Below are positions 8,774-51,653 of a DNA stretch of 64,000 nt, piece after piece (the stretch's first letter is position 1; each line of letters starts with the position of its first letter). The notes beneath the pieces are model-generated. The model was not told the DNA's origin. It did not search any database and saw only the letters and a list, made by a program, of their open reading frames with translations. Made by a program: the position numbers and the translations under genes. Source of the DNA: an uncultured Hyphomicrobiales bacterium (GTDB lineage Bacteria > Pseudomonadota > Alphaproteobacteria > Rhizobiales > Beijerinckiaceae); assembly GCA_903861645.1 (NCBI GenBank), contig CAIOVE010000103.1, forward strand, positions 1 through 64,000. Direction: 5' to 3'.

Positions 8774-11101
<2,328 letters not shown>

Positions 11102-11145
11102 TTCATTGCCCCTGTTCGTTCAATGACGCTTCGGCGAGCGAGGCT

Positions 11146-11943
11146 TCAGGCGGTCAACGCCTCGACCGCGCGGCGGGCGTAGACCTTGACGATATGCGCG
11201 CGATATTCAGCGCTGCAATGGATGTCGCCCATGAGCTGATCGGCGGAGACCGCGATATCCGCGATCGACTTTGGCGTGAACGACTTGTCGAGCGCCGCCT
11301 CCATCGCGGACACGCGGAACACGCTCGGCCCGGCGCCGGTCACGGCGACGCGAACGCCCGACGCGTATTGCGCGACCATGATGCCCACGACCGCGTAACC
11401 GGACGCAGGATGCCGGAACTTGAGATAATGCGCGCGCGAGGGGTTTTTGAAACGCACGGAGGTGATGATCTCGCCCGGCCGCAGCGCGGTTTCGAACAGA
11501 CCGAGAAAGAAATCATCCGCGGCGATGGAACGCTGGTTGGTCACGACCGTGGCGTTCAGACCCACGATAGCGGCGGGATAATCAGCCGCTGGATCGGCGT
11601 TGGCGACCGAGCCGCCGATGGTGCCGCGGTGGCGCACGGCGGGATCGCCAATGCCGCCGGCGAGCGCCGCGAGCGCGGGAATGGCGGTCGCCACTTCATG
11701 CGAAGCGGCGACCACGGCGTGCGGCGTCATGGCGCGAATGACAACCTCGTCGCCTTCGATGGAAATGCCCTTGAGATCGCTGACGCCCGCCAGATCGATC
11801 AGATCGCTCGGCGCGGCGAGGCGGTTCTTCAAGGTCGGCAGAAGCGTCATGCCGCCGGCGAGCAGCTTGCCGTCATCGACGTCCTTGAGCAGCGCGGCGG
11901 CGCCGGCAACGTCGGAGGCGCGGTGATAATTGAAATTGTGCAT
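11146..11943 (-). CDS. Molybdenum hydroxylase FAD-binding (medium) subunit
   Basis: A 265-residue CoxM-type flavoprotein that takes electrons from the iron-sulfur subunit. It starts MHNFNYHRASDVAGAAALL and has the FAD pyrophosphate loops LLAGGMTLLP (near residue 36) and TIGGSVANADP. I chose the ATG at 11943 because AGGAGAAA lies just ahead and the family starts with this strand. It follows the iron-sulfur subunit by 11 bp and precedes the second large subunit by 44 bp. It is the only medium subunit in the operon. Confidence 0.9.
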   Translation of the reverse strand: MHNFNYHRASDVAGAAALLKDVDDGKLLAGGMTLLPTLKNRLAAPSDLIDLAGVSDLKGISIEGDEVVIRAMTPHAVVAASHEVATAIPALAALAGGIGDPAVRHRGTIGGSVANADPAADYPAAIVGLNATVVTNQRSIAADDFFLGLFETALRPGEIITSVRFKNPSRAHYLKFRHPASGYAVVGIMVAQYASGVRVAVTGAGPSVFRVSAMEAALDKSFTPKSIADIAVSADQLMGDIHCSAEYRAHIVKVYARRAVEALTA

Positions 11944-11954
11944 GACGATTTCTC

Positions 11955-12437
11955 CTACGACCGCACGGCGTTGATCTTGGCGCTGCCGTCGATGATCGCC
12001 TCGACGATGCCCTGATAGCCGGTGCAACGGCAGATGTTGCCCTCAAGCTGATGGCGCACGGTCTTTTCGTCCGCGCCCGGCAGGCGACGGGCGATGTCGA
12101 CGCCCATCATCACCATGCCCGGCGTACAGAAGCCGCATTGCAGGCCATGATGATCGCGGAACGCCTGCTGCATCGGGTGCAGCGTTCCATCCTCGGCCGC
12201 CAGGCCCTCGATCGTGGTGATCGCCTTGCCCTCGGCCTGAACGGCCAGCATCGTGCAGGATTTCATCGCCACGCCGTCGACGTGCACGACGCAACAACCG
12301 CACTGCGTGGTGTCGCAGCCCACATGCGTGCCCGTCAGCCGCAAATGCTCGCGAATGAACTGCGCGAGCAGCGTGCGCGCCTCCACCTTCCCCGATACCG
12401 CCTGACCATTCACGGTCATCTGAACGTCGTAAAGCAC
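11955..12437 (-). CDS. Molybdenum hydroxylase [2Fe-2S] (small) subunit
   Basis: A 160-residue small subunit with two [2Fe-2S] clusters that relay electrons from molybdenum to FAD. The N-terminal plant-ferredoxin cluster is [10 protein letters not shown] plus a later SC; the C-terminal cluster is QCGFCTPGM and CRCTGYQ. I place the start at a GTG (12437) seven bases after GGAGG, giving a protein beginning just before VQMTVNGQ as in relatives; an ATG 15 bases further in is an alternative. It lies 32 bp after the first large subunit. Confidence 0.9.
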
Positions 12438-12469
12438 GTCTTGTCCTCCGCTCGACTCTTTGGCGCCGC

Positions 12470-14800
12470 TCACGCGGCCTTCTGTGATTTCGCGTCCTCG
12501 ATAGCGCGCCATACCTTTTCGGGGGTCAGCGGCATGTCGATATGCCGGACACCGTAGTCCCAGAGCGCGTTGATCGCAGCCGACACGATGGCGGGCGGCG
12601 CGCCGCAGGCGCCCGCCTCGCCCGCGCCCTTCACGCCAAGACCATTGGTCTTGCAGGGCACGACGTTGAAATGCGCCTCGATATGCGACATGTGCGCCGC
12701 GCGCGGCATGCCGTAATCCATGTACGACGCGGTCAGCAACTGTCCGGACGCGTCGTAAACGACGTCTTCCGTAAGTGTCTGACCCACGCCCTGAACAACG
12801 CCGCCATAGACCTGCCCATGCACGATGAAGGGATTGAGCACGACGCCGCAGTCATCAACGGCGACGTAATTGAGCAACTCGATGATTCCTGTCTCGGGGT
12901 CGATCTCGAGTTCGACGACATGCGCGCCGTTCGGGAAGTTTTCGACATCGTTCTCGAAGGTGACTTCCTCGTCGAGACCCGGCGTCATGCCCTCGGGCAA
13001 TCGCCGCGGATCGCGCGCCGCCTTCGCGACCTCCTCGATCGTGATGCTGCTGGCGTTGGCCTTGAAGACGCCCTCGGCGAAGGTCACTCGCTCCGCCTCC
13101 GCCTGCAACAGATGCGCGGCGATCTTGCGCGCCTTGACCAGAATGACCTCGCTGGCCTGCTTGATGCCCATGCCGCCGACCATCGACGAGCGCGAACCGA
13201 AGGTGCCATTCGACATCTTGGGCGAATTGGCCGTATCGCCATTGATGAGCTTCACCCGTTCGAAATCGACGCCGAGGAATTCATGCACGAGCTGCGAATA
13301 GACGGTCTCGTGGCCCTGTCCATGTGAATAAGTGCCAGCGATGACGGAAATATCGCCATTCTCCTCGAACCGGATGCGCATGCCCTCGACCGGCCGGCTG
13401 CCCGCGCCCTCGATGAACACGGAAAGCCCGATGCCGCGATGCTTGCCGCGCTTGAGCGACTCCGCCCGACGCGCGGGAAAACCGTTCCAGTCCGCGCCAT
13501 CCATCGCCATTTTCATGGTGCCGTCGAAATCGCCGGAGTCGATGGTGAAGCCCAGATGCGTCTTGTAGGGCATCTGGTCCTCGCGAATGAAATTGCGGCG
13601 GCGGATTTCATCGCGCGGCAATCCCAGCGCCTCCGCCGCTTTGTCCATCAGCCGCTCGGTGATGTAATTCGCCTCGGGTCGACCGGCGCCGCGATAGGTG
13701 TCCGTGCAGACCGTGTTCGTGAAGGTCGGCTTCACGGAAAAATAGAACTCCGGCACGTGATAGACGCAGGGAATGATGCGGCCGCCGCCTTCCATCGGCA
13801 GACGCAGGCCATTCTCTGAAAGATAGGCGCCGACGTTGACCATCGTGTCGAGTTTCATCGCGATGATGCGGCCATCCGCGTCGAAACCCATTTCCGCGTG
13901 ATTGACCTGATCGCGACCGTGATAATCGGAGACAAAGGTCTCGAAGCGATCGCCGCGCCATTTCACCGGCCGGCCCAGCGTCTTGGCGGCGAAGGCGACC
14001 GCGACCGTCTCCGGGAACATCTTGCTGCGCACGCCGAAACCGCCGCCGGTGTCGCGCGAGACGATGCGTGTCTTGTCGACCGGCAAGCTCAACAAGCGCG
14101 CGAGATTGCCTTGCAGGCGGCGACCGCCCTGCGAAGGTGTGTAAACGGTCAGGGAACCCGTCGCCGCGTCGTATTCGGCCGAGGCGGCGCGCGGCTCCAT
14201 CGGGCTCGGCGCCAGCCGGTTGTTCACAAGATCGACGGCGACGCGCTTATGGGCGCCCGCCAGCAAGGTCTCCACCTTTGCCGCGTCGCCATACTCCCAA
14301 TGCACAACGGCGTTCGTGCCGAACTCCGGCCAGACGCGCGGCGCGTCCGGTTCGAGCGCCCGCGCGCCATTGGCGACCGCCGGCAATGGCTCGTAATCGA
14401 CCTCGACCGCTTCCGCGGCGTCGCGTGCCATCGCCGCCGTCTCCGCGACCACGATGGCCAGGCATTCGCCCACGAAGCGGGCCTGACGGCGCGGCAGAAC
14501 CTCGCGCGGCGGCTTGTGCATGGGCGCGCCATCGCGGTTCTTGTAGGCGGCGTCGTTCAATAGCAGGCCCACGCCGGCGGCGGCGAGATCCTCCCCCGTG
14601 ATGACGGCGACAACGCCCGGCATGGACAGAGCGGCCGTCGCGTCGATGGATGAAAAAAGGGCGTTGGCATGCGGCGAACGCACGAAAGCGGCCCAGGCCT
14701 GACCATCGAGGTTGATATCGTCGGTGAATTGACCCCGCCCCCGCAGCAGTCGGGTGTCTTCCTTGCGCCGGACCGGCTGACCTATGCCAAACTCGCCCAT
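12470..14800 (-). CDS. Molybdenum hydroxylase large (molybdopterin-binding) subunit, first copy
   Basis: A 776-residue large subunit heading the operon. It begins [19 protein letters not shown], has GGGFGVRSK and HGQGHETV cofactor loops, TYRGAGRPE and the catalytic [15 protein letters not shown] is the loop of the so-called form II CoxL proteins, whose substrate is generally unknown and which are not proven CO oxidisers. The ATG at 14800 matches the family N-terminus. It faces the IclR regulator across 228 bp that hold a 13-bp palindrome, so that regulator probably controls the operon. Confidence 0.88.
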
Positions 14801-14851
14801 GAATCCGAATTCCCGTCCCGTGATTTTCCGGCGCGTTCGCCGCGCGACCGG

Positions 14852-14864
14852 TTGTTTTAAACAA
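14852..14864. promoter_or_regulatory. Palindromic operator candidate between the Mo-hydroxylase operon and the iclR-type gene
   Basis: TTGTTT, one base, then AAACAA form a perfect 13-bp inverted repeat, 51 bp before the molybdenum hydroxylase start and 164 bp before the divergent iclR-type start. IclR-family proteins bind short palindromes of this kind in the shared region of divergent promoters. That the adjacent IclR protein binds here is inferred from position only. Confidence 0.45.
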
Positions 14865-15028
14865 GGTTGACGCGAGCCGCGCAAGAGGCCCACGAGCCGG
14901 CGGGATGGGCGCCCGCGTTTCGGGCTTTCATGAGGGGCCAGCTATTTGGTAGTGTCGCCAAAGCGATTGCGCGGGCGACATGCATGGAACGGCCATGCGC
15001 GATGAAAAGCCGGTGAACGAGGAAACGC

Positions 15029-15877
15029 ATGAAGGTCGAACGGCTCCCGAACGCCGACACCGCGATCGGCGCGCATGAAGCGTCGGATTCCCGCCGTTAC
15101 CGCATCGAGGCGGTCAGCCGCGCGGCGCACATCCTCAATTGCATCCGGACCGGCGAGCAATCCAGCGTTGCGGCGATCGCCGCCTGCGCGGAGGCGCCCG
15201 AACCCTTCGTCCGCTCGGCGCTGGAGGCTCTGGAGCGTCGCGATCTGGCGCGCGCGAGGGACGGCCGGACGGAGGATTGGGCTCTCGGCCTCGGTTGGCT
15301 TCGGCTGGCCGCGGCAGGCCGTCGCCAGATCGACGTTCGCGAAATCGCACAGCCCATCATGCGGCGCATGCGTGAGGATGTCGACGAAACGATCATTCTT
15401 TCCGTGCGCCGCGGCAATCGCCGCGTCACCGTGGAATTCGTCGAAAGCACGCAAAACGTCCGGCGTATCGTCGAAATCGGGGCGGAAGCGCCGCTTTACG
15501 TCGGCGCCGCCGGGCGCGCCATGCTTTCAGGCTTCTCCGAGCGCGATCTACGCGACTATCTGAGCTCGGTCGTGGCGTCCGATGGCACGATCATCATGGG
15601 CCTCGGCGTCGACGCATATATCGCTGAAATCCAGAAAACCCACGAACGCGGCTACGCCATCGCCTTTGGCGAATTCACTCCGGACCTGTGCGCGATCTCC
15701 ACGCCCATAGTTGATCACGCGGGTCACGTGGTCGCCGCGCTCGCCATCTCGTTTCCAACCGACCGTTTCACGCGGGAACTGGAAAGCGCGTGCATCAAGG
15801 TGGTGAAGGACGCGGCGCTCGAGGTATCGCGGCTGATCGGCTACGTCGACCCCGCGGCTGTCCCGGGCGCGGCCTGA
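15029..15877 (+). CDS. IclR-family transcriptional regulator
   Basis: A 282-residue regulator with an N-terminal winged helix-turn-helix (about residues 25-90; AAHILNCI, VAAIAACAEAPEPFVRSALEAL) and a C-terminal GAF-like effector domain (about 105-275; SGFSERDL, ERGYAIAFGEF). IclR proteins usually sense an aromatic or heterocyclic metabolite and control a neighbouring catabolic operon. Here it stands between the molybdenum hydroxylase operon (divergent) and the hydantoinase genes, which start 50 bp downstream in the same direction, so it probably governs both. GAGGAAACGC precedes the ATG. Confidence 0.88.
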   Translation: MKVERLPNADTAIGAHEASDSRRYRIEAVSRAAHILNCIRTGEQSSVAAIAACAEAPEPFVRSALEALERRDLARARDGRTEDWALGLGWLRLAAAGRRQIDVREIAQPIMRRMREDVDETIILSVRRGNRRVTVEFVESTQNVRRIVEIGAEAPLYVGAAGRAMLSGFSERDLRDYLSSVVASDGTIIMGLGVDAYIAEIQKTHERGYAIAFGEFTPDLCAISTPIVDHAGHVVAALAISFPTDRFTRELESACIKVVKDAALEVSRLIGYVDPAAVPGAA

Positions 15878-15927
15878 CCCCTCTGGACAGGGAAGGCCAT
15901 TCCCGCCAGAAGAAAACCGGAAACGCG

Positions 15928-18078
15928 ATGAACAGCGCAGCGGCTTCGCGGCCGCGCCAGGACGATAGCGAGGAAAGAGTGGAGCCCAAGAGTCAGAACC
16001 CTACGGCGAGACCGGGAACCCGGCTGGCGGCGGATATCGGCGGCACCTTCACCGACGTCGCGGCCTTCCGCGAGGAAACGGGCGAACTGCTATACGGAAA
16101 GGCCCTATCCACCCCCGCGCGCTTGGTCGAGGGCATCAGCCACGGCGTGGAAAAGGCCGGCGCGACCTTCGCGGAGGCCGATATTTTCCTGCATGGCTCG
16201 ACCATCGCCATCAACACCATGCTGGAGCGATCGGGCGCGCGCACGGCCCTGATCGTCACCAAGGGCTTTCGCGACATCTACGAAATCGGTCGCATCAACC
16301 GGCCCGACGCCTACAATCTTTATTTCCGCAAGCATCGTCCCCTCGTCCAGCGCTCGTTGCGCTTCGAGGCGATCGAACGGCTGACGGCCGAGGGCGACGT
16401 CGACACCCCGCTCGACGAAGCTTCGATCCACGCCATCTGCGATCAACTCGCCGCGCTCGACATCGAGGCCGTCGGCATCATGCTGTTGCATTCCTATCGC
16501 AACAACGCCCACGAACGCCGGGTCAAGGAAATCGTCCGCGAACGGCTGCCGCGCGCCTTCGTGTCGGCCTCGCACGAACTGTCGCAGGAATATCGCGAGT
16601 TCGAGCGATGTTCGACGGTTGTGGCCAACGCCTACGTTGGCCCCAAGGTCAGCGCCTACGTGGCGGGCATCGACGAACATCTGGCCCAGCACGGTTTCGA
16701 GGGCTCGTTCCTGCTGGTCCAGTCGTCGGGCGGGCTTTATGAATCCGCGCAGGCCAAGGAACATTGCATCCGCATGCTGGAGTCCGGCCCGGCGGCCGGC
16801 GTTATCGGCGCGCGCGCGCTTTGCAACGCGCTTGGCATGAGTGACGCCATCGCCTTCGACATGGGAGGCACGACCGCCAAGGCCGGCGTCATCCACAATG
16901 GCGACGCCCTCACGACCGGCGCCGCGCTCGTAGGCGGCTACAACGAAGCCCTGCCCGTGCAGATCTCGATGATCGATATTTTCGAGGTCGGCACCGGCGG
17001 CGGGAGCATCGCGCGGCTGGACGCGGGCGGCGGTCTTGGCGTGGGTCCGCGCAGCGCCGGCGCGACGCCTGGCCCGGCCTGCTATGGACTTGGCGGCGAG
17101 GAGCCGACCGTCACGGACGCCAACCTGCTGCTGGGCCGTCTCGATCCCGCGCGCTTTCTGGGCGGCGAGATGAAGCTCGACATTCCCGCCGCCGAACGCG
17201 CGCTGGAAAAGCACGTGGCCGGCCCGCTGGGCATGTCGGTGATCGCGGCGGCCGAGGGCGTGCTGCGGATCGCGGCGACGACCATGTCCTACGCCGTGAA
17301 GGGCGTTTCGACCGAACGCGGCCTCGACGCGGCGGCCTTCCCGATGATCGCCTACGGCGGCGCGGGGCCCCTGCATGCGTCCGCCGTCGCGCGCGAAATC
17401 GGCACGTCGCAAGTTATCATCCCGCGCGCGCCCGGACATTTCTGCGCCTTTGGCATGCTGTTTTCAGATCTGCGCTACGACTACGTCCGCACGGCGCCGA
17501 TGCGGCTGGCCGACGCCTCGTTCGAGCAGATCGAGAAAATCTACGATGGCATGATCGCCGAGGGCATGACCGCGCTCGCCGGCAGCGGCATCGCCAACGC
17601 GGAGGCGACCATCGCCCGCGCCGCCGACATGCGCTATGTCGGACAGGAGCATTCGGTCACCATCGACCTGCCGAATGAGTTGTTCGCCGGCCAGGACCGC
17701 GCCGCGATCAAGAAGCGCTTCGACGACGTGCATCTGTCGCGCTATGGCACCTGCGCGCCCAACGAGCCCGCCGAAATCGTCAGCCTTCGCGCCACGGTGA
17801 CCGGCCAGATGAAAAAACCCGCCCTGTCGCCAATCGCGGCCGGAGGCGCCGAGCCGCCGGCGGACGCGCGCCTGCCAGCCCGCGACGTCTATTTCAGCGA
17901 GATCGGCAAGGCGGTTTCGACGCCCATTTTCCAGCGCGAACGCCTGCTCGCCGGCAACCGGATCGAGGGGCCGGCGCTCGTCGAGGAACATGCCTCCACC
18001 ACCGTCGTCCTGCCGGGCGACCATCTGGAGGTCGATCGTTTCGGCAACCTCGTCATCGCCATCGGACGGAGCCATTGA
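15928..18078 (+). CDS. hyuA: Hydantoinase/oxoprolinase family protein, HyuA-type subunit
   Basis: A 716-residue ATP-dependent amidohydrolase subunit of the N-methylhydantoinase A / 5-oxoprolinase / acetone carboxylase beta family. It has the phosphate loop [31 protein letters not shown], the second nucleotide-binding segment [11 protein letters not shown] and GGGSIAR. Such proteins work with a HyuB partner, here encoded immediately downstream and overlapping. The ATG at 15928 leaves about 34 residues before the first strand, so a shorter start is possible. Substrates in the family include hydantoins, 5-oxoproline and ketones. The neighbouring molybdenum hydroxylase suggests a cyclic amide. 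Confidence 0.85.
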
Positions 18079-18083
18079 ACGCC

Positions 18084-19844
18084 ATGACCACCGCCGCAGC
18101 CCAGCCCAAGCGCGCCGCCGACGCCGTACTGACCGCCATCATCAAGAATGGCGTGCTGGCCGTGACCGAGGAGATGAAAACCAATCTCATGCGGACGGCC
18201 TACAACATGATCATCTACGAGGCGCTCGACTTCACCGTCGGGCTCTTCACGCCCAACGGCGAGACCGTGTCGATCGGCCTGGGCCTGCCGATGTTCATTC
18301 GCGGCATGTCGCAGACCGTCAAGGCGAAGATCGAGAAGTTCGGCAAGGAGAACATGAAGCCGGGCGACATCTACGTCACCAATGACGCCTATCTCACCGG
18401 CAGCCACCTGAATCACTTCACCTTCACCATGCCCGTTTTCCACGAGGGCGCGCTCGCGGGCTTCACCTGCTGCATGGCGCACTGGCAGGATGTCGGCGGC
18501 GCGCTCGGCGGCGTGACGACGGACATCTATTCCGAAGGCATCCAGATACCGATCATGCGGTATCAGAAGGAAGGCGTCGTCAACGAGGATCTCGTCGACA
18601 TCATCCGCATGAACGTGCGCGTGCCCGAGCGCGCCATGGGCGACCTGCGCGCGCAGGTCACGGCGGTCAAGACCGGCGAGCGCCGCTACATCGAATTGCT
18701 CAACCGTTATGGCCGCGAGGAAACCCTCGTCGCCATCGCGCGCATCATGGACCAGTCGGAGGCGCGCGCGCGCGAACTGACCCGCTCGATTCCCGACGGC
18801 GTCTACGAGGCCGAGGCCTTCATGGACGACGATGGCGTCGACATCGGCCAGCGCGTGCCGATCAAGGTCCGCATCGTCATCGAGGGCGACGAGGCCACCA
18901 TCGATCTTTCCGAGGTCAGCAAGCAGGTGCGCGGCTTCTACAACTCGGGCCCGACAACCGGCTACGCCTGCGCGGAAGTCGCCTACAAGTGCATCACATC
19001 GCCGACGGATTACCCGATCAACCAGGGCTCGTTCCGCTCGCTGAAGGTCATTCTCCAGCCCGGCACCGTCGTCAGCGCCGTGCGGCCCGCCGCGATGCGG
19101 CAATGGATGACCTATCCCATGACCATCGTGGACTCGCTGTTCAAGGCGCTCGCCCCGGCGATTTCCGAGCGCGTCATCGCCGGCCATCACGCCGACCTGA
19201 TGACCATCAACATGTGGGGTGTGCATCCGAAGGACGGACGTTTCTACTTCGGCAATTTCGGCCCGCTCGGCGGTGGTTGGGGCGCCAAGAAGACCGAGGA
19301 TGGCATGCCCGCCACGGTCTGTCTTAACGATGGCGACACCCACAACAGCCCGATGGAGCAGGCGGAAACGAAATTCCCCGTGCTGATCCGCCAACTGGCT
19401 TTGCGCGAGAACTCGGGCGGCGCCGGTCGCTGGCGTGGTGGCCTCGGCATTCATCGCGTGATCGAGGCGCGCGCGCCCTTCACCGTCAACACCCAGATCG
19501 ACCGCGCCCATTGCGCGCCGTGGGGGCTGGAAGGCGGCAAGGACGCGCTTGGCAACAAGGTCGACCTGCGCATTGGCGGCACGCTGATCGACGATCTGCC
19601 CAACGCCAAGGTCTACACGCGGCGGCTGGAGGTCGGCGACCAGATTCATCATCTGTCCGGCGGCGGCGGCGGCTTCGGCCCGCCGACCGAGCGCGAGCCC
19701 GAGCGCGTGGCCTTCGACGTCGCGGAAGGCTACGTCAGCCGCGAAATCGCGGAGGCCGAATATGGCGTAATCCTCGACGCCAGCGGCAAGGTCGATGCCG
19801 CGGCCACGAACCGCCGGCGCGAGGCCATGGCGAAGGCGTCATGA
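18084..19844 (+). CDS. hyuB: Hydantoinase B/oxoprolinase family protein, HyuB-type subunit
   Basis: A 586-residue partner of HyuA. It has SIGLGLPMFIRG, PGDIYVTNDAYLTGSHLNHF and GGGWGAKKTEDG, all standard for HyuB/oxoprolinase C-terminal-half proteins. I use the ATG at 18084. A TTG at 18075 overlaps the hyuA stop and is also possible, since GGAG lies closer to it. Its stop overlaps the start of a small downstream gene (ATGA), so the three are translationally linked. Confidence 0.87.
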   Translation: MTTAAAQPKRAADAVLTAIIKNGVLAVTEEMKTNLMRTAYNMIIYEALDFTVGLFTPNGETVSIGLGLPMFIRGMSQTVKAKIEKFGKENMKPGDIYVTNDAYLTGSHLNHFTFTMPVFHEGALAGFTCCMAHWQDVGGALGGVTTDIYSEGIQIPIMRYQKEGVVNEDLVDIIRMNVRVPERAMGDLRAQVTAVKTGERRYIELLNRYGREETLVAIARIMDQSEARARELTRSIPDGVYEAEAFMDDDGVDIGQRVPIKVRIVIEGDEATIDLSEVSKQVRGFYNSGPTTGYACAEVAYKCITSPTDYPINQGSFRSLKVILQPGTVVSAVRPAAMRQWMTYPMTIVDSLFKALAPAISERVIAGHHADLMTINMWGVHPKDGRFYFGNFGPLGGGWGAKKTEDGMPATVCLNDGDTHNSPMEQAETKFPVLIRQLALRENSGGAGRWRGGLGIHRVIEARAPFTVNTQIDRAHCAPWGLEGGKDALGNKVDLRIGGTLIDDLPNAKVYTRRLEVGDQIHHLSGGGGGFGPPTEREPERVAFDVAEGYVSREIAEAEYGVILDASGKVDAAATNRRREAMAKAS

Positions 19845-28064: not shown

Positions 28065-28364
28065 ATGTGCTCCTACATCACCGAGAAAGCGGCCATCATG
28101 GGCAGCGCCAAGGGTCGGCGCGGCTGGATGTCGGTCGACACCGCGGTCGTCTATTATGACCATCCGACGCACGTGCCGCTCGACCACGCGTTGAACATCG
28201 ACTTCGTGGATTCGAAATCCCACGAGCGCGTGGCGGTGGAACTGTCGGCGGACTCGGCGCGCGAACTCATCGCGCGCATTCAGGCGGCGCTCGATAGCGG
28301 CGACGCCATCCATCTGGGCTCGCGCGACCCGGAACCCGTTCGCGCGCAAGGAGCCTCCGCATGA
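28065..28364 (+). CDS. DUF6295-like small protein
   Basis: A 99-residue protein starting MCSYITEKAAIMGSAKG, which resembles the small family annotated as DUF6295 (recognised from memory). It has VYYDHPTHVPLDHALNIDF and a C-terminal helix. No catalytic motif is evident. It lies eight bases behind the dienelactone hydrolase gene and overlaps the next gene by ATGA, so it belongs to the same operon. Function unknown. Confidence 0.6.
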   Translation: MCSYITEKAAIMGSAKGRRGWMSVDTAVVYYDHPTHVPLDHALNIDFVDSKSHERVAVELSADSARELIARIQAALDSGDAIHLGSRDPEPVRAQGASA

Positions 28365-29056
28365 CCATTCGCATGTACGATCTCGCCGGCGCGAACCCGG
28401 CCGTGCGCTTCAGCCCCTATTGCTGGCGCGCGCGCATGGCGCTGGCGCACAAGGGCCTCGACGTCGAGACGATCGCCTGGCGCTTCTCGGACAAGGAGGC
28501 CATCGCCTTTTCCGGCCAGGGTCTCGTGCCCGTGTTGCGCGATGGCGACACGATCGTCAACGACTCCTGGGCGATCGCCGAATATCTCGACAAGACCTAT
28601 CCCGATCGCCCCGTCCTGCTGGACGGCGAACAAGGACGCGCGCTCGCCAATTTCGCGCGGCACTACGCGCAGAACGTCCTGAGCGGCATCTTGTTCAAGG
28701 CGATCATGATGGACCTGTTCAACGCCATCGATCCCGGCGACCGGGCCTATTTTCGCGAATCCCGCGAAAAGCGCGTCGGCTCGACACTGGAGCAGTTCCA
28801 GATAGCGCCCGACGCCGCGCGCGCCCAGTTGAACACGGCGCTTTCGCCCCTGCGCGCCGTGTTGAAGGAGCAACCCTTCATCAATGGCAGACACGCGGCC
28901 TTCGCGGACTATTGCGTGTTCGGCGCGTTCATGTGGGCGCGCAACGTCTCATCCGTGTCGCTGATCGCCGAGGATGACCCGACCCATGCATGGCGCGAGC
29001 GTATGCTGGACCTTTTTGATGGACTCGCGCGCAAGTCGCCGCGCGCGACGGCGTGA
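28361..29056 (+). CDS. Glutathione S-transferase family protein
   Basis: A 231-residue cytosolic GST. The N-terminal thioredoxin-like domain has FSPYCWRARMAL, with a Cys at the glutathione-activating position as in beta/omega/zeta-like enzymes, and LVPVLRDG (cis-Pro) followed by DSWAIAEYL. The C-terminal domain is all helical. It overlaps the upstream small gene by ATGA and is followed by a second GST, so a glutathione-dependent step (ring opening, dehalogenation or isomerisation) probably belongs to this operon. Confidence 0.85.
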   Translation: MTIRMYDLAGANPAVRFSPYCWRARMALAHKGLDVETIAWRFSDKEAIAFSGQGLVPVLRDGDTIVNDSWAIAEYLDKTYPDRPVLLDGEQGRALANFARHYAQNVLSGILFKAIMMDLFNAIDPGDRAYFRESREKRVGSTLEQFQIAPDAARAQLNTALSPLRAVLKEQPFINGRHAAFADYCVFGAFMWARNVSSVSLIAEDDPTHAWRERMLDLFDGLARKSPRATA

Positions 29057-29070
29057 AGGGAGGCGGCGCG

Positions 29071-29784
29071 ATGATTGAATTGCATTACTGGCCCACGTCG
29101 AACGGGCACAAGATCACGATGGCCCTCGAGGAAATGGGCCTGCCCTACGAGATACATCCGGTGAATATCGGCAAGGGCGAGCAGTTCAGGCCGGCTTTCA
29201 TCGCCATCTCGCCCAACAACCGAATGCCCGCGATCATCGACAGGGCGCCCGCCGACGGCGGCGGACCGCTCCCGATCTTCGAATCCGGCGCGATCCTGAT
29301 CTACCTCGCGGAGAAATGCGGCAAGTTCCTCCCCGCCGACCTTCGCGGCCGCGCCGACGTGCTGCAATGGCTGTTCTGGCAGGTCGGCGGCCTCGGCCCC
29401 ATGGCCGGTCAGAAAGGACATTTCCTGCATTCGGCGCCCGAACCCGTGCCTTACGCGATCGACCGCTACACAAGGGAGGTTGACCGGTTGTTCGGCGTTC
29501 TCGATCGCCGGCTGGCCGATCGGGAATTCGTCTGCGGGGCCTATTCGATAGCGGATTTCGCCATTTACCCCTGGACCGTTTCGGCGCTCAAGCGCGACGC
29601 CACCGTGCTCGCGGCCTTCGCAAATGTGCGCCGATGGACGGACGCCATCGCGAAGCGCCCGGCGACCATCGCCGCTTTCGCCAAGGGCGACCCGCTGCAA
29701 GCCCAGCAGGCGACGGACGAGGAGCGCCAGCGCAATCTATACAGCCAGACAGCCGCGAGCGTGGCGGACCGCGTGGGCAAGTAG
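29071..29784 (+). CDS. Glutathione S-transferase (Nu/YfcG-like)
   Basis: A 237-residue GST of the YfcG/Nu type: YWPTSNGHKITMALEE with the Thr-Ser-Asn-Gly turn, NNRMPAIID, then FESGAILIYLAEK. Members often have disulfide-bond reductase activity and bind glutathione without a classical Tyr/Ser/Cys thiol-activating residue. I chose the ATG at 29071, after GGGAGGCGG. Its C-terminal domain contains WLFWQVGGLGPMAGQ, a motif of this group. It lies 14 bp behind the first GST. Confidence 0.87.
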   Translation: MIELHYWPTSNGHKITMALEEMGLPYEIHPVNIGKGEQFRPAFIAISPNNRMPAIIDRAPADGGGPLPIFESGAILIYLAEKCGKFLPADLRGRADVLQWLFWQVGGLGPMAGQKGHFLHSAPEPVPYAIDRYTREVDRLFGVLDRRLADREFVCGAYSIADFAIYPWTVSALKRDATVLAAFANVRRWTDAIAKRPATIAAFAKGDPLQAQQATDEERQRNLYSQTAASVADRVGK

Positions 29785-29893
29785 CGCTCGAATGCCGCCC
29801 GGTCTTGCCGGGCCTGTTCGCATTGGCTAGCCTTGACCCGACACATGAACAGTCGCCACGCTTCCAACGAGTAGCTTGGTCGGGGAGGAAAAC

Positions 29894-30352
29894 TTGATCA
29901 CGTTCCTGTTCGTCATGCACGGGCTCTGCGCCATCGCGCTCCTCGGCGCGATCACCCATCAGGCCGCCGCGGTATGGCTCCCGGTTCGCGCGCCCGACCC
30001 TTCATTCACCGCGCGCTTTCGGGCCGTGAAGGCGGCGAGTTACGTCAACGCGATCATCGTGCTGTTCCTGATCACCTTCACGCTGGGCGCGATTGTCTAT
30101 CCGACGTATCGCATCGGGGCGCGCATCTACATGGAAGACCTCCGCATGAGCGCGCCCGTGGGCTCATTCGAGGTCAAGGAACATCTCATCACCTTCGCCC
30201 TCGGATTGCTGCCCACCTATTGGTATTTCTGGCGGGCGCCGCTCACGCCGGAGCTGGAAGGCGCGCGCAAGGGCGTCGTGCTCGTATTGGCGATTTTCAT
30301 CTGGGCGGCGTTTCTGACGGGCCACGTCCTCAACAATATCCGCGGGGTTTGA
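29894..30352 (+). CDS. Four-helix membrane protein of unknown function
   Basis: A 152-residue inner-membrane protein with about four hydrophobic segments (roughly 1-28, 45-72, 95-112, 128-148). The first helix contains VMHG and THQAAAVW, whose histidines could bind a haem or metal, but this is speculative. I place the start at a TTG (29894) because GGGAGGA sits six bases ahead; no ATG is as well placed. It opens a four-gene run with another membrane protein and two exported proteins. I do not recognise the family. Confidence 0.6.
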   Translation: MITFLFVMHGLCAIALLGAITHQAAAVWLPVRAPDPSFTARFRAVKAASYVNAIIVLFLITFTLGAIVYPTYRIGARIYMEDLRMSAPVGSFEVKEHLITFALGLLPTYWYFWRAPLTPELEGARKGVVLVLAIFIWAAFLTGHVLNNIRGV

Positions 30353-30353
30353 G

Positions 30354-30695
30354 ATGCGTCTGGCGCGCGCCTTTCCGGCGTTTTCGGCGGCCTTCGCGAC
30401 CGCCTATCTGATATCAATGTATTTCCATCCGACGTTCACGCTGTTCACCTACGCGCCGCGGCTTCATCAATGGTTCGCGGGCGTGCCCCAACTGCCCGGC
30501 CGGCAGGGACCGGGCATGTTCTGGTATTCATGGCTGGCGACGGGCCTGCTGGTCGGCCTTCTGGCGGGGGCCGCGGCGCTGGCGACGCCGGCCGCCATTC
30601 GCGCGCGCGTCTGGCCCGGCTTGGCCTGGCTGGTCCCCGTGGTCCTCACGGCGATATTGCTCTACATTGAGCGTACCTGGTTCGGATTTAAATAA
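30354..30695 (+). CDS. Three-helix membrane protein of unknown function
   Basis: A 113-residue membrane protein with about three hydrophobic helices (8-30, 56-80, 88-106) and a Pro/Gly-rich loop (GVPQLPGRQGPGMF). It begins two bases after the stop of the preceding membrane protein, so the two are probably one complex. No known family was recognised. Confidence 0.6.
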   Translation: MRLARAFPAFSAAFATAYLISMYFHPTFTLFTYAPRLHQWFAGVPQLPGRQGPGMFWYSWLATGLLVGLLAGAAALATPAAIRARVWPGLAWLVPVVLTAILLYIERTWFGFK

Positions 30696-30731
30696 GACGC
30701 GCGGACCCAGCGCGTCATCTGGAGGAAACAC

Positions 30732-31127
30732 ATGCGCCGTCCCCTCGTCACAGCGCTGTTGATCGCACTGGTTGGCGTCGGGGTCGCCACGGCGGCGCGC
30801 GCTGGCGGCGGTTCCTTTGACACGATGGACGACGATGATCAGGAGGCCGGGCCACCCTATGTCGGCAACGTCAGGGATCGCGACGGCAATCCGATCGCCG
30901 ACGCGAAAGTGACAATCTCGGTCAAGGCCTTTAATTCCAGTCTTATTCTGCGCACGGACGATCAGGGCCATTTCAACGTCAAGGGGTTCGACAAGAGCGT
31001 CGACCCGGAGGGCGTTGATTTTTCATGCAGCGCCGACGGCTATAAATTTTTCGCGCGCAGCAAGAACCCGACGGGCGACGGACCACGCTCGCCCATCGAT
31101 GTCACCTGCCTCGTCGAAAAGCAGTGA
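30732..31127 (+). CDS. Exported protein with carboxypeptidase-regulatory-like domain
   Basis: A 131-residue protein with a clear Sec signal peptide (MRRPLVTALLIALVGVGVATAARA) and an acidic DTMDDDDQE segment, then one transthyretin-like beta-sandwich domain: VGNVRDRDGNPIADAKVTISV...TDDQGHFNVKGF. Such domains bind or support other periplasmic proteins. TGGAGGAAAC precedes the ATG. The larger protein encoded next begins with a related domain, which links the two functionally. Confidence 0.7.
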   Translation: MRRPLVTALLIALVGVGVATAARAGGGSFDTMDDDDQEAGPPYVGNVRDRDGNPIADAKVTISVKAFNSSLILRTDDQGHFNVKGFDKSVDPEGVDFSCSADGYKFFARSKNPTGDGPRSPIDVTCLVEKQ

Positions 31128-31146
31128 CCCGCGCGCACGCCAACGA

Positions 31147-32790
31147 ATGAAGTGGGCGAAACATCTTTTTTCACTATTGCCTTTGGCGCTGACCTTCGCG
31201 GGCGCGCCCGCGCGCGCCGTCGATCAACCGCCCATGCTTTCCGGCGTCGTGCGTTCGCGGGCGGAGGGCGCCATGGAGGGCGTGCTGGTGACGGCGCGCA
31301 AGCGGGGCTCGGCCATCGCGGTGACCGTCGCGAGCAATGACAGGGGCGCGTTTGCCTTCCCGGCCGGTCGCCTGACACCGGGCGAATATACGATCGCAAT
31401 TCGCGCGACGGGATATGAACTTTACGGCGCGCCGCGAACCGTCAGCCTGTCCGGCGAAAAAACGGTCGTCGATCTCGCGTTGACGCCCGCGCGCGATACC
31501 GGCGCGCAACTCACCAACTCGGAATGGTTTGACAGCATTCCCGGATCGGAAAAAGACAAGCGGCCACTAATGGCGTGCATGTCCTGCCATTCGCTTGAAC
31601 GGATCGTAAGGTCGACGCACGACGCGAACGAATTCGTCGACGTTTTGCGCCGCATGGTGAACTACGTCACGGAGTCCGGCCGCGACGACATCCCCCAGCG
31701 CGCGATCCCACGCGACATTCCAGAGGATAAGTTGCGGTCGTTCGCCACCTTTCTCGCGTCGATCAACCGATCGCGTGGCGAATGGACCTGGCGACTGCGG
31801 ATGGCGCCGCGCCCAAGGGGTCGCGCGACAAATGTCATCATCACCGAATACGACCTGCCCCGCGCGACCATCGCCCCGCACGACGTCTGGCGCGACCCCG
31901 AAGGCTTCGTCTGGTATTCAAATTCCGCCGAGCAGTATCTCGGCCGTCTCGATCCCCGCGATGGATCGCATCGCGAATTCGCCCTGCCCGTTGCGCGACC
32001 GGACGCGCCAAGGGGCACGCTCGATCTGGAACCCGACGGCAATAGCGATCTGTGGCTTGCGCTGATGTATCAGGGCGGATTGGCGAAATTCGATCGCCGG
32101 ACGGAGCTATTCACGCTTTTCCCTGTTTCGTCCGGCTCCGCGGATGAAGCCACGCAACAATCCATGGTGGCGCCAGCGGCTTCCGACATCGACGGCAAGG
32201 TCTGGACCAATGAAGTCGGCAAGCAAGCCATCATGCGCGTCGATATCGCCACCGGACGATACGAACTGGTTGATCCCTTCGCCAACGCCGCGCTCGGTTC
32301 CGTTCATACGCCCTACGGCATGGTCACGGACGCCGCGAACAATCTCTGGTTCCTCGATTTTGGCGGACAAACACTCGGCAAGATCGACGCGCGCACGCTC
32401 GCGGTGACGCATTATCCCACGCCAACGTCGGCTTCACGCCCACGACGCGGGCGGTTCGATGGCAAGACCATCTGGTTCGCCGAATTCGGCGCCGACAAGC
32501 TGGCGGCGTTCGATGTCGAGCGCGAATCCTTCCGCGAGTGGAGCGTGCCATCGACCCATTCCTTCCCTTATGACGCTTTCATGGATGCCGACGGGGATTT
32601 GTGGAGCGGCAACATGGCCAACGACCGCGTGCTACGCATGCGTCCCGAAAGCGGCGCGGCGGTGGAATATCTATTGCCCCAACACGCCAACATCCGCCGC
32701 GTCTTCGTTGACGACCGGAAACCGCGGCGAAGCCTTTGGGCGGGCGACAATCATGGCGCGCGCATCTTCAGGGTCGAACCCCTCGACTGA
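31147..32790 (+). CDS. Exported fusion: carboxypeptidase-regulatory-like domain, c-type haem motif, Vgb/streptogramin-lyase-like propeller
   Basis: A 547-residue exported protein. Residues 1-24 form a signal peptide; about 30-115 is a transthyretin-like domain (MLSGVVRSRAEGAMEGVLVTA); CMSCH at 144-148 is a c-type haem attachment site inside a helical cytochrome-like segment (to about 215); about 225-545 is a repeated beta-propeller resembling virginiamycin B lyase (WRDPEGFVWYSN, DGNSDLWLALM, ADGDLWSGN). The lyase active-site residues could not be confirmed, so antibiotic cleavage should not be assumed. A haem-bearing propeller suggests a periplasmic redox or sensing role. It is the last gene of a four-gene envelope module. 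Confidence 0.7.
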   Translation: MKWAKHLFSLLPLALTFAGAPARAVDQPPMLSGVVRSRAEGAMEGVLVTARKRGSAIAVTVASNDRGAFAFPAGRLTPGEYTIAIRATGYELYGAPRTVSLSGEKTVVDLALTPARDTGAQLTNSEWFDSIPGSEKDKRPLMACMSCHSLERIVRSTHDANEFVDVLRRMVNYVTESGRDDIPQRAIPRDIPEDKLRSFATFLASINRSRGEWTWRLRMAPRPRGRATNVIITEYDLPRATIAPHDVWRDPEGFVWYSNSAEQYLGRLDPRDGSHREFALPVARPDAPRGTLDLEPDGNSDLWLALMYQGGLAKFDRRTELFTLFPVSSGSADEATQQSMVAPAASDIDGKVWTNEVGKQAIMRVDIATGRYELVDPFANAALGSVHTPYGMVTDAANNLWFLDFGGQTLGKIDARTLAVTHYPTPTSASRPRRGRFDGKTIWFAEFGADKLAAFDVERESFREWSVPSTHSFPYDAFMDADGDLWSGNMANDRVLRMRPESGAAVEYLLPQHANIRRVFVDDRKPRRSLWAGDNHGARIFRVEPLD

Positions 32791-32795
32791 TCTTT

Positions 32796-33845
32796 TCAGT
32801 CTTTCGTCGAGCGCACGATATCGACATAGCGCTTGATGATGGCGGGCGGCGTGGCGCTCATCCGTTGCACCACGTCGCGAACGGCGGCGCCGTCAATGGG
32901 ACTGAGTTCAAAATTGGCCTTGCGCGCGTCATCGAGAAACGCGGGATCGCGCGTCATGTCCATGAAGGCGCGACGCAGGGCGTCGACCCGATCGAGCGGA
33001 ACATCGGGAGGCGCCAGGAATGGCAGCGCGATAAAGAACGACAGTTCGGCGAATTGCAGCAACGCACGATCGTCCGGATCGCTCAGCCGCTCCCGCGCCG
33101 TGGGCACGTCGGCCAGCTCGGGCAAGCGCGTCAGGCGTCCGAATTGCAGCAAGGGCCGAACCTTCTTGCCATTCCAGAGCGCGGGCTGCGCGCCCCGCAC
33201 GGAGCCGAGGCCAATGACCTGCCCGTCGAGCTCGCCGCCCTCCATCGCGATGAACATGCGCGAGGCGCCGGCGTAACCGCGCACGACCTTGATGTTCAGC
33301 TTCAACAGATCCCGCGCCAGGATGGCGAATGTCAGGTTCGTGGAGCCCGGCGTGTCGCCGCCGAGGCGCGCGACGACGCCGGGCTTGTGCAGATCCTCGA
33401 TCGATCGAGCGGGATGCCCGTCGTTGACGAGCAGCAGATAGGCGTCGTTGGCGTAGGACGACAGCGAGCCGATCCAGTTGAACTTCAACGGGTCGAAGCG
33501 CGCGTTGGGGTCGCCTTCATAGGCCATTTGCGGCGTGCCGCGTTCCATGACGCCAATGGTCAATCCGTCGCGGTCGCGCGTGTTCATGAACTGGTTGGCG
33601 AGCAAAAGCCCGCCGGCGCCCGGCAGATTCTGCACCACGACGCCCGGCTGCCCCGGCATGAATCGGCCAAGATGCCGCGCGACAAGTCGCGCGTTCAGAT
33701 CGAAGTTGCCGCCCGGCGAGGTCGGCACGAGTATGGTGATCACGCGCCCCTTGTAGAACTGTTCGAGCGTCTGCGTGGCCGCCGGCGGGATTGTCGCGCC
33801 CAGGGCCGCCGACGCTAGCAAGGCGCGTCGCGTGACGCTGATCAT
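32796..33845 (-). CDS. Bug-type (tripartite tricarboxylate transporter) periplasmic binding protein
   Basis: A 349-residue periplasmic protein of the Bug/TctC family, which binds small carboxylates. It has a signal peptide with an ArgArg start (SVTRRALLASAALGA), ITILVPTSPGGNFDLNARLVARHLG, QNLPGAGGLLLANQF and GDTPGSTNLTF. Its ATG overlaps the stop of the racemase-like gene (ATGA), so the two are translationally coupled. No TctA/TctB membrane subunits are encoded in the window, making it an orphan binding protein. Confidence 0.85.
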   Translation of the reverse strand: MISVTRRALLASAALGATIPPAATQTLEQFYKGRVITILVPTSPGGNFDLNARLVARHLGRFMPGQPGVVVQNLPGAGGLLLANQFMNTRDRDGLTIGVMERGTPQMAYEGDPNARFDPLKFNWIGSLSSYANDAYLLLVNDGHPARSIEDLHKPGVVARLGGDTPGSTNLTFAILARDLLKLNIKVVRGYAGASRMFIAMEGGELDGQVIGLGSVRGAQPALWNGKKVRPLLQFGRLTRLPELADVPTARERLSDPDDRALLQFAELSFFIALPFLAPPDVPLDRVDALRRAFMDMTRDPAFLDDARKANFELSPIDGAAVRDVVQRMSATPPAIIKRYVDIVRSTKD

Positions 33846-34576
33846 GGCAGCGCCGGCAAGGTGGCGAGCAACTGGCCATATCCCGCGCGCGGTTCGTTCA
33901 CATGCAGGCGCTTCTGGAATTCCCAGACCCGGGCGGGCACCGGATGCACGACGGGCACGCCGAGATCGCGCTCCAGCAGGTCGATGATATGTAGGGTCCG
34001 CCAGCCGGAGCCCAGCATGTAGATGGCGTCGGCGCCGCCATGCTTGAGAAAATGCCTCTTGATATGGGCGTAGACCTGTTCGCCCGATAGCTCCTGCGCC
34101 TTGTCGAAGGGCGTTTCGATGCCCTCCATGCAACGCACCTCGAAGCCCGCGTCGCGGAAATACTGGGCGAAGGTGTTGTTGATTTCACCGGGAAAGTAGG
34201 TCGCGCCAATGATGCTTTTCACCTTCAGCGCCCGCAACGCCGAAATGTGGTTCTGGCCGGCGGTGAAAATGGGCGTCTTGTATTTTCGCTCCCAGCTGGC
34301 GATCAGTTCCGCCTCGCCCTTCAGTCCATGCACCATGAAAGGCGGCGCGCCATTGGGATGAATGGCGTCGCAACCCTGTTCCGCCAGCAACGCGATCTGC
34401 GTCTCGTAGGCGTCCATGACGGTCGCGAATTCATCGCGCGTGCCGCGGCGGATATTGGTGAACAGCGGTAAAACGCCGATGCCCTCCGGCAGCAGGCGAA
34501 TGAATTCCTCCAGCGCGCCCGGACGCAAGGTCGGATGAATAATGCCGGCTATGCCGCGCCACGCCGAAAACGCCAT
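33842..34576 (-). CDS. Asp/Glu racemase-fold protein lacking both catalytic Cys, second copy
   Basis: A 244-residue paralogue of the protein at 26435-27166, similar along its whole length: WRG..G.I.PT.RPG, HPNGAPPFM, GQNH..ALRAL and MLGSGWR occur at the same positions. Both sites that hold the catalytic cysteines in classical racemases and maleate isomerase again lack Cys. GGGAGGA precedes the ATG at 34576. It is coupled to a Bug-type binding protein, so its substrate may be the ligand that protein binds, perhaps a carboxylic acid. Function unproven. Confidence 0.75.
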   Translation of the reverse strand: MAFSAWRGIAGIIHPTLRPGALEEFIRLLPEGIGVLPLFTNIRRGTRDEFATVMDAYETQIALLAEQGCDAIHPNGAPPFMVHGLKGEAELIASWERKYKTPIFTAGQNHISALRALKVKSIIGATYFPGEINNTFAQYFRDAGFEVRCMEGIETPFDKAQELSGEQVYAHIKRHFLKHGGADAIYMLGSGWRTLHIIDLLERDLGVPVVHPVPARVWEFQKRLHVNEPRAGYGQLLATLPALP

Positions 34577-34711
34577 CGAGTCCTCCCGGAAAATTCTTGA
34601 TCGCGAGATTAGTCGAGGTTGCCGCTGGATGACAACTTCGCCGTTCTGGCTTAAGTCAGGCGTCAGGGGACGGCGCGGACAACAGCGCGAAAAGGGCGGG
34701 ATACTGCAACG

Positions 34712-49934: not shown

Positions 49935-51653
49935 ATGACGTCATCAACCCTCAAGACGGCGCGCCGCGTCGCGCTCGCGACAACCATGCTGATCGGCGCG
50001 CCGGCTCTCGCCGCCGAGGTCACATTTGAACGTCTGGTCAACGCGGACAAGGAGCCGCAAAACTGGCTGATGAACCATCGCACCTACGATGGTCAGCGCT
50101 TTTCGCCCCTCACGCGGATCAACAAGCAGAACGCCGGGTCCATCCATCTTGCCTACGCGGTGGCGCTTGGCGGCTCGGCCGTCAATGAAAACATCGAGGC
50201 GACGCCGCTTGTCGAGGATGGGTTCCTCTATATCGTCGACCAATGGGCCATCGTCTACAAGATCGACGTGCGCTCCGGCGATCAGGGCCGCATCGTCTGG
50301 CGCATGGACCCCGGTCAGGAAAAGCCGCCGACATGGTCCAATCGCGGCGTCGCGCTCTGGGGCAATTACGTCATCTCCGTCGCGGGCTGGCCGTCGCGCG
50401 TGATCGCGACCAACAAGGACACCGGCAAGGTCGTCTGGGAAACCAACATGCAGGACCAGCCCGCGGTGGAACTCACCGCGGCGCCGCTGATCGTCAATGA
50501 CAAGGTCGTTATCGGCGCCTCGGGCGGCGACCGCGGCGCGCGCGACTGGCTGGCGGGGCTCGACGCGGCGACGGGCAAGGTCGCATGGAAGAAGTTCACC
50601 GTGCCGGCGCCGGGCGAGCCGGGCAGCGAAACCTGGAAGGACAAGAACAACGCCTGGCAGACGGGCGGCGGCTCCATGTGGACCACCGGCACCTACGATC
50701 CGCAATCGAACCAGATTTTCTGGGGCACCGGCAATCCCGTGCCGATGTTCGACCCGACCTATCGCCCCGGCGACAATCTGTTCACGAACAGCATCATTTC
50801 GTGGAACCCCGCCGACGGCAAGATGAACTGGTATCACCAGTATCTGCCGGGCGATGGCTGGGACTATGATTCCATCTCCACGCACATCGTCATCGACGCG
50901 ATGGTCAACGGTCAGCAACGCAAGCTGCTGACGCAGTCCAACCGCAACGGCCACGTCTATACGATGGAAAGCGCGAACGGTCAGATGATCGTCGCCAAGC
51001 CCTATACGGAAGTGAACTGGACGAAGGGCATCGATCAGAAGACCGGCAAGCCCGTCGACTATGTCGCGGGCGCCGATCGTCAGATGTACGCCGGCGTCGC
51101 GACCGCCACGCTGGAACATAACAGCGTGCGGCAGTGCCCGAGCCTGAACGGCGGAAACAATTTCTGGCCGTCGAGCTATAGCCCGCGCACCAAACTGCTC
51201 TACATCCCCTCCGACGCCGGTTGCGACGAGTTGAAGATCGACCCGAAACTGTCGAACCCCGCGGGCGTCTGGAAGGGCGGCGTCTACACGCAAACCGAAC
51301 GCTTCGAGAGCGACATCGTCGCCTTCGATCCATTGAAGGGCGAGGTGGTGAAGAAGATTCGCTTCCCCTTCCCCAATCACGCCGGCACAGTGACGACGGC
51401 GGGCGGCCTCGTCTTCGCGGGCTTCTCGGATGGCACCTTCGCCGCCTTCGACGACGAGACCCTGGAAACAAAATGGAAGATCAACATGGGCGCCGGCTTC
51501 ACCGCGCCGCCCATGACATTCGCGGTCAACGGCAAGCAATATGTCGCGATTTCCACGGGCCTTTCGACCATCGCCCGCAAGATGCTCGGCAAATCGCCGG
51601 AAACCTCGGAAATGCGCAACTCGACCGTGCTCTACGTGTTCACCGTTGATTGA
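49935..51653 (+). CDS. PQQ-dependent alcohol dehydrogenase, predicted lanthanide-type, lacking the vicinal Cys pair
   Basis: A 572-residue periplasmic quinoprotein with an N-terminal signal peptide (cleavage near 27) and an eight-bladed propeller of W-motifs. Metal and catalytic positions can be read against methanol dehydrogenase: Glu179, Asn267 (GTGNP), Arg337 (NRNGH) and Asp310 in WDYD. The residue two after the catalytic Asp is Asp312; Asp here marks lanthanide-dependent enzymes (XoxF, PedH), while calcium enzymes have Ala or Ser. The adjacent-cysteine disulfide that caps PQQ is replaced by Pro-Pro before WSNRG (about 131-132). No cytochrome or MxaJ-like gene follows. It is a single-gene unit ending in a strong terminator. 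Confidence 0.88.
   Translation: MTSSTLKTARRVALATTMLIGAPALAAEVTFERLVNADKEPQNWLMNHRTYDGQRFSPLTRINKQNAGSIHLAYAVALGGSAVNENIEATPLVEDGFLYIVDQWAIVYKIDVRSGDQGRIVWRMDPGQEKPPTWSNRGVALWGNYVISVAGWPSRVIATNKDTGKVVWETNMQDQPAVELTAAPLIVNDKVVIGASGGDRGARDWLAGLDAATGKVAWKKFTVPAPGEPGSETWKDKNNAWQTGGGSMWTTGTYDPQSNQIFWGTGNPVPMFDPTYRPGDNLFTNSIISWNPADGKMNWYHQYLPGDGWDYDSISTHIVIDAMVNGQQRKLLTQSNRNGHVYTMESANGQMIVAKPYTEVNWTKGIDQKTGKPVDYVAGADRQMYAGVATATLEHNSVRQCPSLNGGNNFWPSSYSPRTKLLYIPSDAGCDELKIDPKLSNPAGVWKGGVYTQTERFESDIVAFDPLKGEVVKKIRFPFPNHAGTVTTAGGLVFAGFSDGTFAAFDDETLETKWKINMGAGFTAPPMTFAVNGKQYVAISTGLSTIARKMLGKSPETSEMRNSTVLYVFTVD

Follow-up and report, generated by a model that had tools for sequence, protein, structure and literature searches.

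The question raised by this locus is what four adjacent genes of an uncultured Hyphomicrobiales bacterium do together. The four ORFs, named g1, g2, g3 and g4, lie on the + strand in one direction at positions 29894-32790 of the window (the whole stretch of 64,000 nucleotides that was analysed), and are separated by gaps of 1 (g1-g2), 36 (g2-g3) and 19 (g3-g4) bases, in agreement with the tight packing described in the initial annotation. Since related gene sets are found in many environmental bacteria, the four genes probably encode a single, undescribed envelope machine whose most likely task is to move electrons. No paper describing the module was found in the open-licence literature; a description elsewhere is possible.

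Table 1. Coordinates of the four genes and of the domains and motif of g4 (positions in the window)
Feature	Position	Strand	Description
g1	29894..30352	+	152 aa, TTG start; four-helix membrane protein without a Pfam or NCBIfam match over cut-off
g2	30354..30695	+	Three-helix membrane protein, 113 aa; no family over cut-off
g3	30732..31127	+	131 aa; signal-like peptide and one CarboxypepD_reg-like (transthyretin-like) domain; Cys 99 and 126 conserved
g4	31147..32790	+	547 aa; signal-like peptide, CarboxypepD_reg domain, CxxCH segment, Vgb-like beta-propeller
CarboxypepD_reg domain of g4	31237..31485	+	Residues 31-113; over Pfam cut-off
CxxCH motif of g4	31576..31590	+	C144, C147, H148 (residues 144-148)
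Vgb-like propeller region of g4	31819..32766	+	Limits approximate

The TTG start of g1 is immediately preceded by GGGGAGG, which by eye resembles a ribosome site, and a further in-frame TTG is present at 29876. The start of g4 was set at the ATG at 31147, within an ORF listed from 31015, because the signal-like sequence begins there; the signal peptides of g3 and g4 were both judged by eye. Two adjacent glutathione transferase (GST) genes (28361-29784) form the 5' flank of g1, and a TctC-type gene in the opposite direction ends at 32796 on the 3' flank of g4. The site search returned no promoter-like sites, and terminator-like sites were at the shuffled mean. Between g2 and g3 (30696-30716), a 7-pair inverted repeat precedes a T-rich stretch on the minus strand, a type of site that is no commoner than in shuffles.

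The initial annotation proposed to search for the same gene order in other genomes. Scanning the genome collection yielded 188 pattern matches, 170 of them confirmed as g1 relatives, and locus counts were made on the best 80 of these 170. Genes g1, g2 and g3 were together in 70 of the best 80 loci, which is more than expected by chance; 8 had g1 and g2 without g3, and 2 had g1 alone, both at a contig end. The g2 gene directly followed g1 on its 3' side in 79 of the 81 copies in these loci, with a gap of -4 (a 4-base overlap) in 42 of the 79. By record title, 54 of the best 80 loci were assigned to Alphaproteobacteria, 15 to Betaproteobacteria and 11 to other or unplaced groups, titles of metagenome bins being weak evidence of identity. 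The genes are thus conserved together elsewhere: the conserved core is g1-g2-g3, and the attached secreted protein varies. Among 61 genomes around the host, g1 was detected in 26, all of the host genus (26 of its 37 genomes). A draw of 299 genomes across the phylum contained g1 in the window's own genome only (1/299); in a further draw it was present in at least 1 of 398 genomes, the window's own being the only one among the candidates scored (at most nine per genome). Plasmid spread of g1 was considered and rejected, as none of 72,556 plasmid records matched it at E 1e-5.

The two small multi-helix membrane proteins of the initial annotation were recovered in confident models, with four helices in g1 (pLDDT 92.7; helices 2-28, 47-82, 86-112 and 119-146) and three helices plus two short strands in g2 (pLDDT 91.9); both consist almost entirely of membrane helices and short loops. 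Neither could be placed in a known unrelated family, as no Pfam or NCBIfam cut-off was reached. Among their relatives, Pfam matches at E 0.1 to any one family concerned at most 11 of 84 g1 rows and at most 3 of 80 g2 rows (best E about 0.002), and no convincing match to a transporter family was obtained in Pfam or NCBIfam, relatives included. Foldseek gave no match for g1 at E 0.001 or better, and further fold comparison gave Z values up to 12.4, a level common for helical bundles, so that the fold is that of a generic helix bundle. For g2, the best Foldseek match was not significant (E 5.2) and the best Z was 4.2 among 25 chains. A g1 profile compared with PDB sequences retrieved SecG alone (E 0.85), which was taken as chance.

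In its first helix g1 shows a His and Gly pattern that is also present in small membrane proteins of the HemJ, CopD and DUF2269 families. Weak matches to DUF2269 were given by 4 of 84 g1 members (best E 0.003). When these families were gathered from relatives and compared by profile, g1 scored 13% with DUF2269, over helix 1 only, and <1% with HemJ and CopD; of the control comparisons, DUF2269-HemJ worked (84.5%), and HemJ-CopD and DUF2269-CopD failed, so the negative result for CopD is weak, two of three controls having failed.

Ten g1 residues are invariant in 82 of 82 rows (His9, His22, Gln23, Tyr69, Lys95, Glu96, Trp113, Arg125, Trp137 and Asn148); Arg73 is kept in 77 of 82, and position 144 is His in 79 and Tyr in 3. 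Positive charge in loops 29-46 and 113-118 suggests, by the positive-inside rule, that both ends of g1 are outside; His9, His144, Arg73, Lys95 and Glu96 would then sit in the periplasmic half. The conserved loop 24-56 of g2, between helices 1 and 2, would be placed in the periplasm.

Of the two transthyretin-like domains in the probably exported proteins, that of g4 passes the CarboxypepD_reg cut-off (PF13620; 36.6 bits, cut-off 32.3), and that of g3 is a resemblance below it (27.4 bits, E 4e-6); 65 of 71 g3 relatives match this family at E 0.1 or better. The two proteins also differ in architecture: the domain of g3 stands alone and has two conserved Cys, whereas g4 is a fusion in which the CxxCH segment lies between the CarboxypepD_reg domain and a propeller matching Vgb_lyase (PF24684; 92.3 bits, cut-off 50). 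Both the CxxCH motif and the Vgb-like propeller had been reported at first reading, and both are indeed present. CxxCH and Met170 are invariant in 19 of 19 close g4 rows, and Met170 is a candidate for the sixth ligand of the predicted haem. The motif was found in 26 of 29 g4-type ORFs near g1, and was missing in two divergent copies and one fragment. At E 1 or better, g4 matched none of the Pfam cytochrome c domains.

PQQ dehydrogenases are periplasmic propeller enzymes linked to haem c, which pass electrons to cytochrome c. The g4 propeller differs from theirs in that it matches Vgb models and not PQQ models, and the link to PQQ dehydrogenase activity suggested earlier is weak, a PQQ-propeller gene in the window lying about 17 kb away (49935-51653). 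One g4 paralogue that is not linked to g1 (L126, host contig C81) has a PQQ-propeller/cupredoxin fusion and a multicopper oxidase in its vicinity.

A longer homologue of g4, of about 740 aa and named P740 (e.g. L106:11564-13795), was found at other loci. Its homology to g4 was established by profile (99%, E 1e-19); its CarboxypepD_reg domain is below the cut-off, and the remainder aligns with the g4 propeller. All 20 long P740 rows have CxxCH, with four conserved Cys and several conserved His besides those of the haem motif. Family annotation is almost nil, three P740 proteins having no NCBIfam match and one having no match among PDB sequences. P740 was present in 3 of the 398 genomes of the phylum draw. 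The ORFs around the two P740 genes of the host include some that, to judge by how their sequences open, are TctC-like or Rieske-like.

Linked partners were counted in the best 80 of 170 loci. Relatives of g4 were present in 20, P740 in 24, and either of them in 40; an Amidohydro_3-family amidohydrolase, which frequently opens with a signal-like sequence (e.g. L064:5129-6793), was present in 28, among them locus L091 of Bradyrhizobium sp. dw_411. At least one of the three was found in 56 loci and none in 24, some of whose contigs are cut. Considering only directly adjacent genes on the same strand, the counts were 28 for g4 or P740, 25 for the amidohydrolase and 46 for any of the three. No locus had both g4 and the amidohydrolase, 12 had P740 and the amidohydrolase, and 16 had the amidohydrolase without g4 or P740. 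The chance of meeting g4 or P740 in a random stretch of 18.5 kb was estimated at about 4% for the host, whose 4.18 Mb contain 7 g4-like and 2 P740 places, and at about 7% for the relative with the most such places (12 g4-like and 5 P740 in 4.7 Mb), these estimates using a stricter match limit than the locus counts. As the amidohydrolase directly adjoins g1-g3 in 25 loci, g1-g2 may work for other pathways, or the pair may function in transport or assembly.

Other neighbours were seen at distant g1-g2 loci. TonB-dependent receptors adjoin L077, L085 and L105; L109 has two ORFs of 730-741 aa beside g1-g2, the one scanned being a tannase-like DUF6351 protein; L120 has a 650-aa ORF without Pfam match 3' of g3; and L085 carries g1-g2 twice in tandem. 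The amidohydrolase-only loci, the TonB receptors and the DUF6351 protein of L109 show that a tie between g1-g2 and redox chemistry is not obligatory.

The history of the linkage was examined on trees. On the g1 tree, partner labels changed 29 times against a shuffled mean of 49, a value as low being reached in 0 of 200 shuffles; near-copies add to this clustering and cut contigs inflate the changes. The P740-only label was not clustered (8 changes in 8 rows). The g4 tree was built quickly and brings long branches together; on it, the 13 full-length copies directly 3' of g3, that of the window included, form one clade (SH-aLRT 99). Ten unlinked copies of the same genus fall outside this clade, and six copies directly 5' of g1 fall in three other places. 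The simplest reading is that of four separate linkages, and an old linkage may instead have been lost repeatedly. Because the downstream copies form one clade, the order g1-g2-g3-g4, present in loci labelled as alpha- and betaproteobacterial, looks like one old unit. With the conserved order and the lack of any family over cut-off for g1 or g2, this agrees with the unrecognised envelope module of the initial annotation.

At the genome scale, the host has 7 g4-like places at E 1e-30, one being the window's own, and 2 P740 places. Of the 16 genomes with g4, 15 also have g1, and 11 of the 26 g1-bearing genomes of the genus are without g4 at E 1e-30. P740 occurs in all 26 g1-bearing genomes of the genus versus 8 of 11 without g1 (34 of 37 overall); in the 24 genomes outside the host genus, g1, g4 and P740 are all absent, so that genus membership confounds the co-occurrence.

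The best reading of a CxxCH propeller protein next to two conserved membrane proteins is that of a periplasmic redox protein with its membrane partner. From the computed gene content, order, conservation, tree positions, conserved residues and helix models we infer export, haem attachment, complex formation, topology, electron flow and substrate. The best explanation, tentative and at somewhat less than an even chance, is that the four genes constitute one envelope redox module, in which an inner-membrane pair g1-g2 would serve a periplasmic redox protein and exchange electrons with a quinone or a cytochrome. Protein g4 would be exported and would carry one covalent haem c, attached at CxxCH and with Met170 as its likely sixth ligand, in the segment that separates the transthyretin-like domain from the propeller; it would be a periplasmic redox protein whose substrate is a small, perhaps aromatic, organic compound. 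Within the predicted inner-membrane pair g1-g2, the g1 residues His9, His144, Arg73, Lys95 and Glu96 could form a quinone site or hold a haem in the periplasmic half. Protein g3 could be a small exported adaptor between g4 and g1-g2, and electrons would pass via g1-g2 between g4 and the quinone pool or respiratory cytochromes.

This redox reading is favoured by the co-location of g1, g2 and g3, the linkage of g4 or P740 above chance, the conservation of CxxCH, the clade of downstream g4 copies, the presence of P740 in all g1-bearing genomes of the genus and the conserved polar residues of g1. Against it stand the lack of a cytochrome c domain in g4, the generic fold of g1 without significant Foldseek match, and the Tyr found in 3 of 82 rows in place of His144, the candidate b-haem partner of His9. 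The 16 amidohydrolase-only loci among the best 80 of 170 also count against it, a hydrolase needing no electron carrier, as do the 24 partnerless ones, the 11 of 26 g1 genomes without g4, the unclustered P740-only label and the genus-confounded co-occurrence.

Alternatively, g1-g2-g3 may form a transport or envelope-assembly unit (inner-membrane uptake, or anchoring and maturation of exported enzymes), whose linked enzyme would supply or process the substrate and in which the haem of g4 would be incidental to g1-g2. Such a unit is possible, if rather unlikely. The partner does vary, with the amidohydrolase in 28 and adjacent in 25 of the best 80 of 170 loci and never in one locus with g4; TonB receptors and the tannase-like protein are found near some g1-g2 copies, and TctC-type binding proteins are recurrent neighbours. 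However, g1 and g2 are without convincing transporter-family match, CxxCH proteins are linked at several separate places of the g4 tree, and P740 is also present in 12 of the 28 amidohydrolase loci. The initial annotation had hesitated between an electron-transfer and a sensing complex. Periplasmic electron transfer is plausible, whereas a sensing complex, in which exported domains would bind a ligand and g1-g2 would relay the signal across the membrane, is improbable: response-regulator-like and kinase-like ORFs lie 5' of g1-g2 in L085 (judged from sequence openings only), but membrane helices and short loops make up nearly the whole of g1 and g2, and among 13 other neighbour clusters present in at least 6 loci no regulator was found in the 10 representatives scanned.

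It is more improbable still, to the point of being very hard to credit, that g4 is a lyase of the virginiamycin B lyase type and the module a resistance or lactone-opening system. The Vgb_lyase domain is over its cut-off and Vgb enzymes (PDB 2z2n, 2qc5) are the closest solved structures to the g4 propeller, but Vgb Glu268 and His270, which we take to be the catalytic residues, align in the best register with Arg431 and Arg433 of g4 (the latter invariant in 19 of 19), a register that is uncertain because the blades repeat. Vgb chains also lack the CarboxypepD_reg domain and the CxxCH segment, for which their 299-300 residues leave no room. The remaining probability goes to other roles.

More speculatively, and doubtful as a whole, g1-g2-g3 could be a general-purpose membrane redox adaptor without known family, onto which exported partners (the g4 and P740 haem-propeller lineages, amidohydrolases and TonB-linked uptake genes) would have been plugged repeatedly, linking the respiratory chain to the degradation of complex, perhaps aromatic, compounds in the periplasm. 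Such a swap of partner proteins around a fixed membrane pair would amount to a modular envelope adaptor. If the redox unit is real, two membrane protein families that are so far unclassified would gain a function, as would a haem-propeller architecture that in its P740 form spans 34 of the 37 host-genus genomes. The unit would also provide a testable route for the oxidation of organic matter outside the cytoplasm by environmental bacteria, many of the records being named after lakes, bogs or soils.

The surroundings of the module may bear on its substrates. Of the two upstream GST proteins, one is beta-etherase-like (164 bits, cut-off 440) and the other resembles glutathione-dependent disulfide oxidoreductases (250 bits, cut-off 332). 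A disulfide-oxidoreductase-like GST is found beside g1 in four near relatives (L013, L015, L016 and L018), three of which also have a beta-etherase-like GST and a dienelactone hydrolase; the contig of L016 starts within the disulfide-oxidoreductase-like GST. These recurrent GSTs, together with the dienelactone hydrolase and the TctC genes, hint weakly at aromatic or lignin-derived substrates. Elsewhere in the window, two molybdopterin-type large subunits, a hydantoinase A/B pair and an arylmalonate decarboxylase-like gene (8777-14893, 15790-19841 and 33845-34609) suggest a catabolic region.
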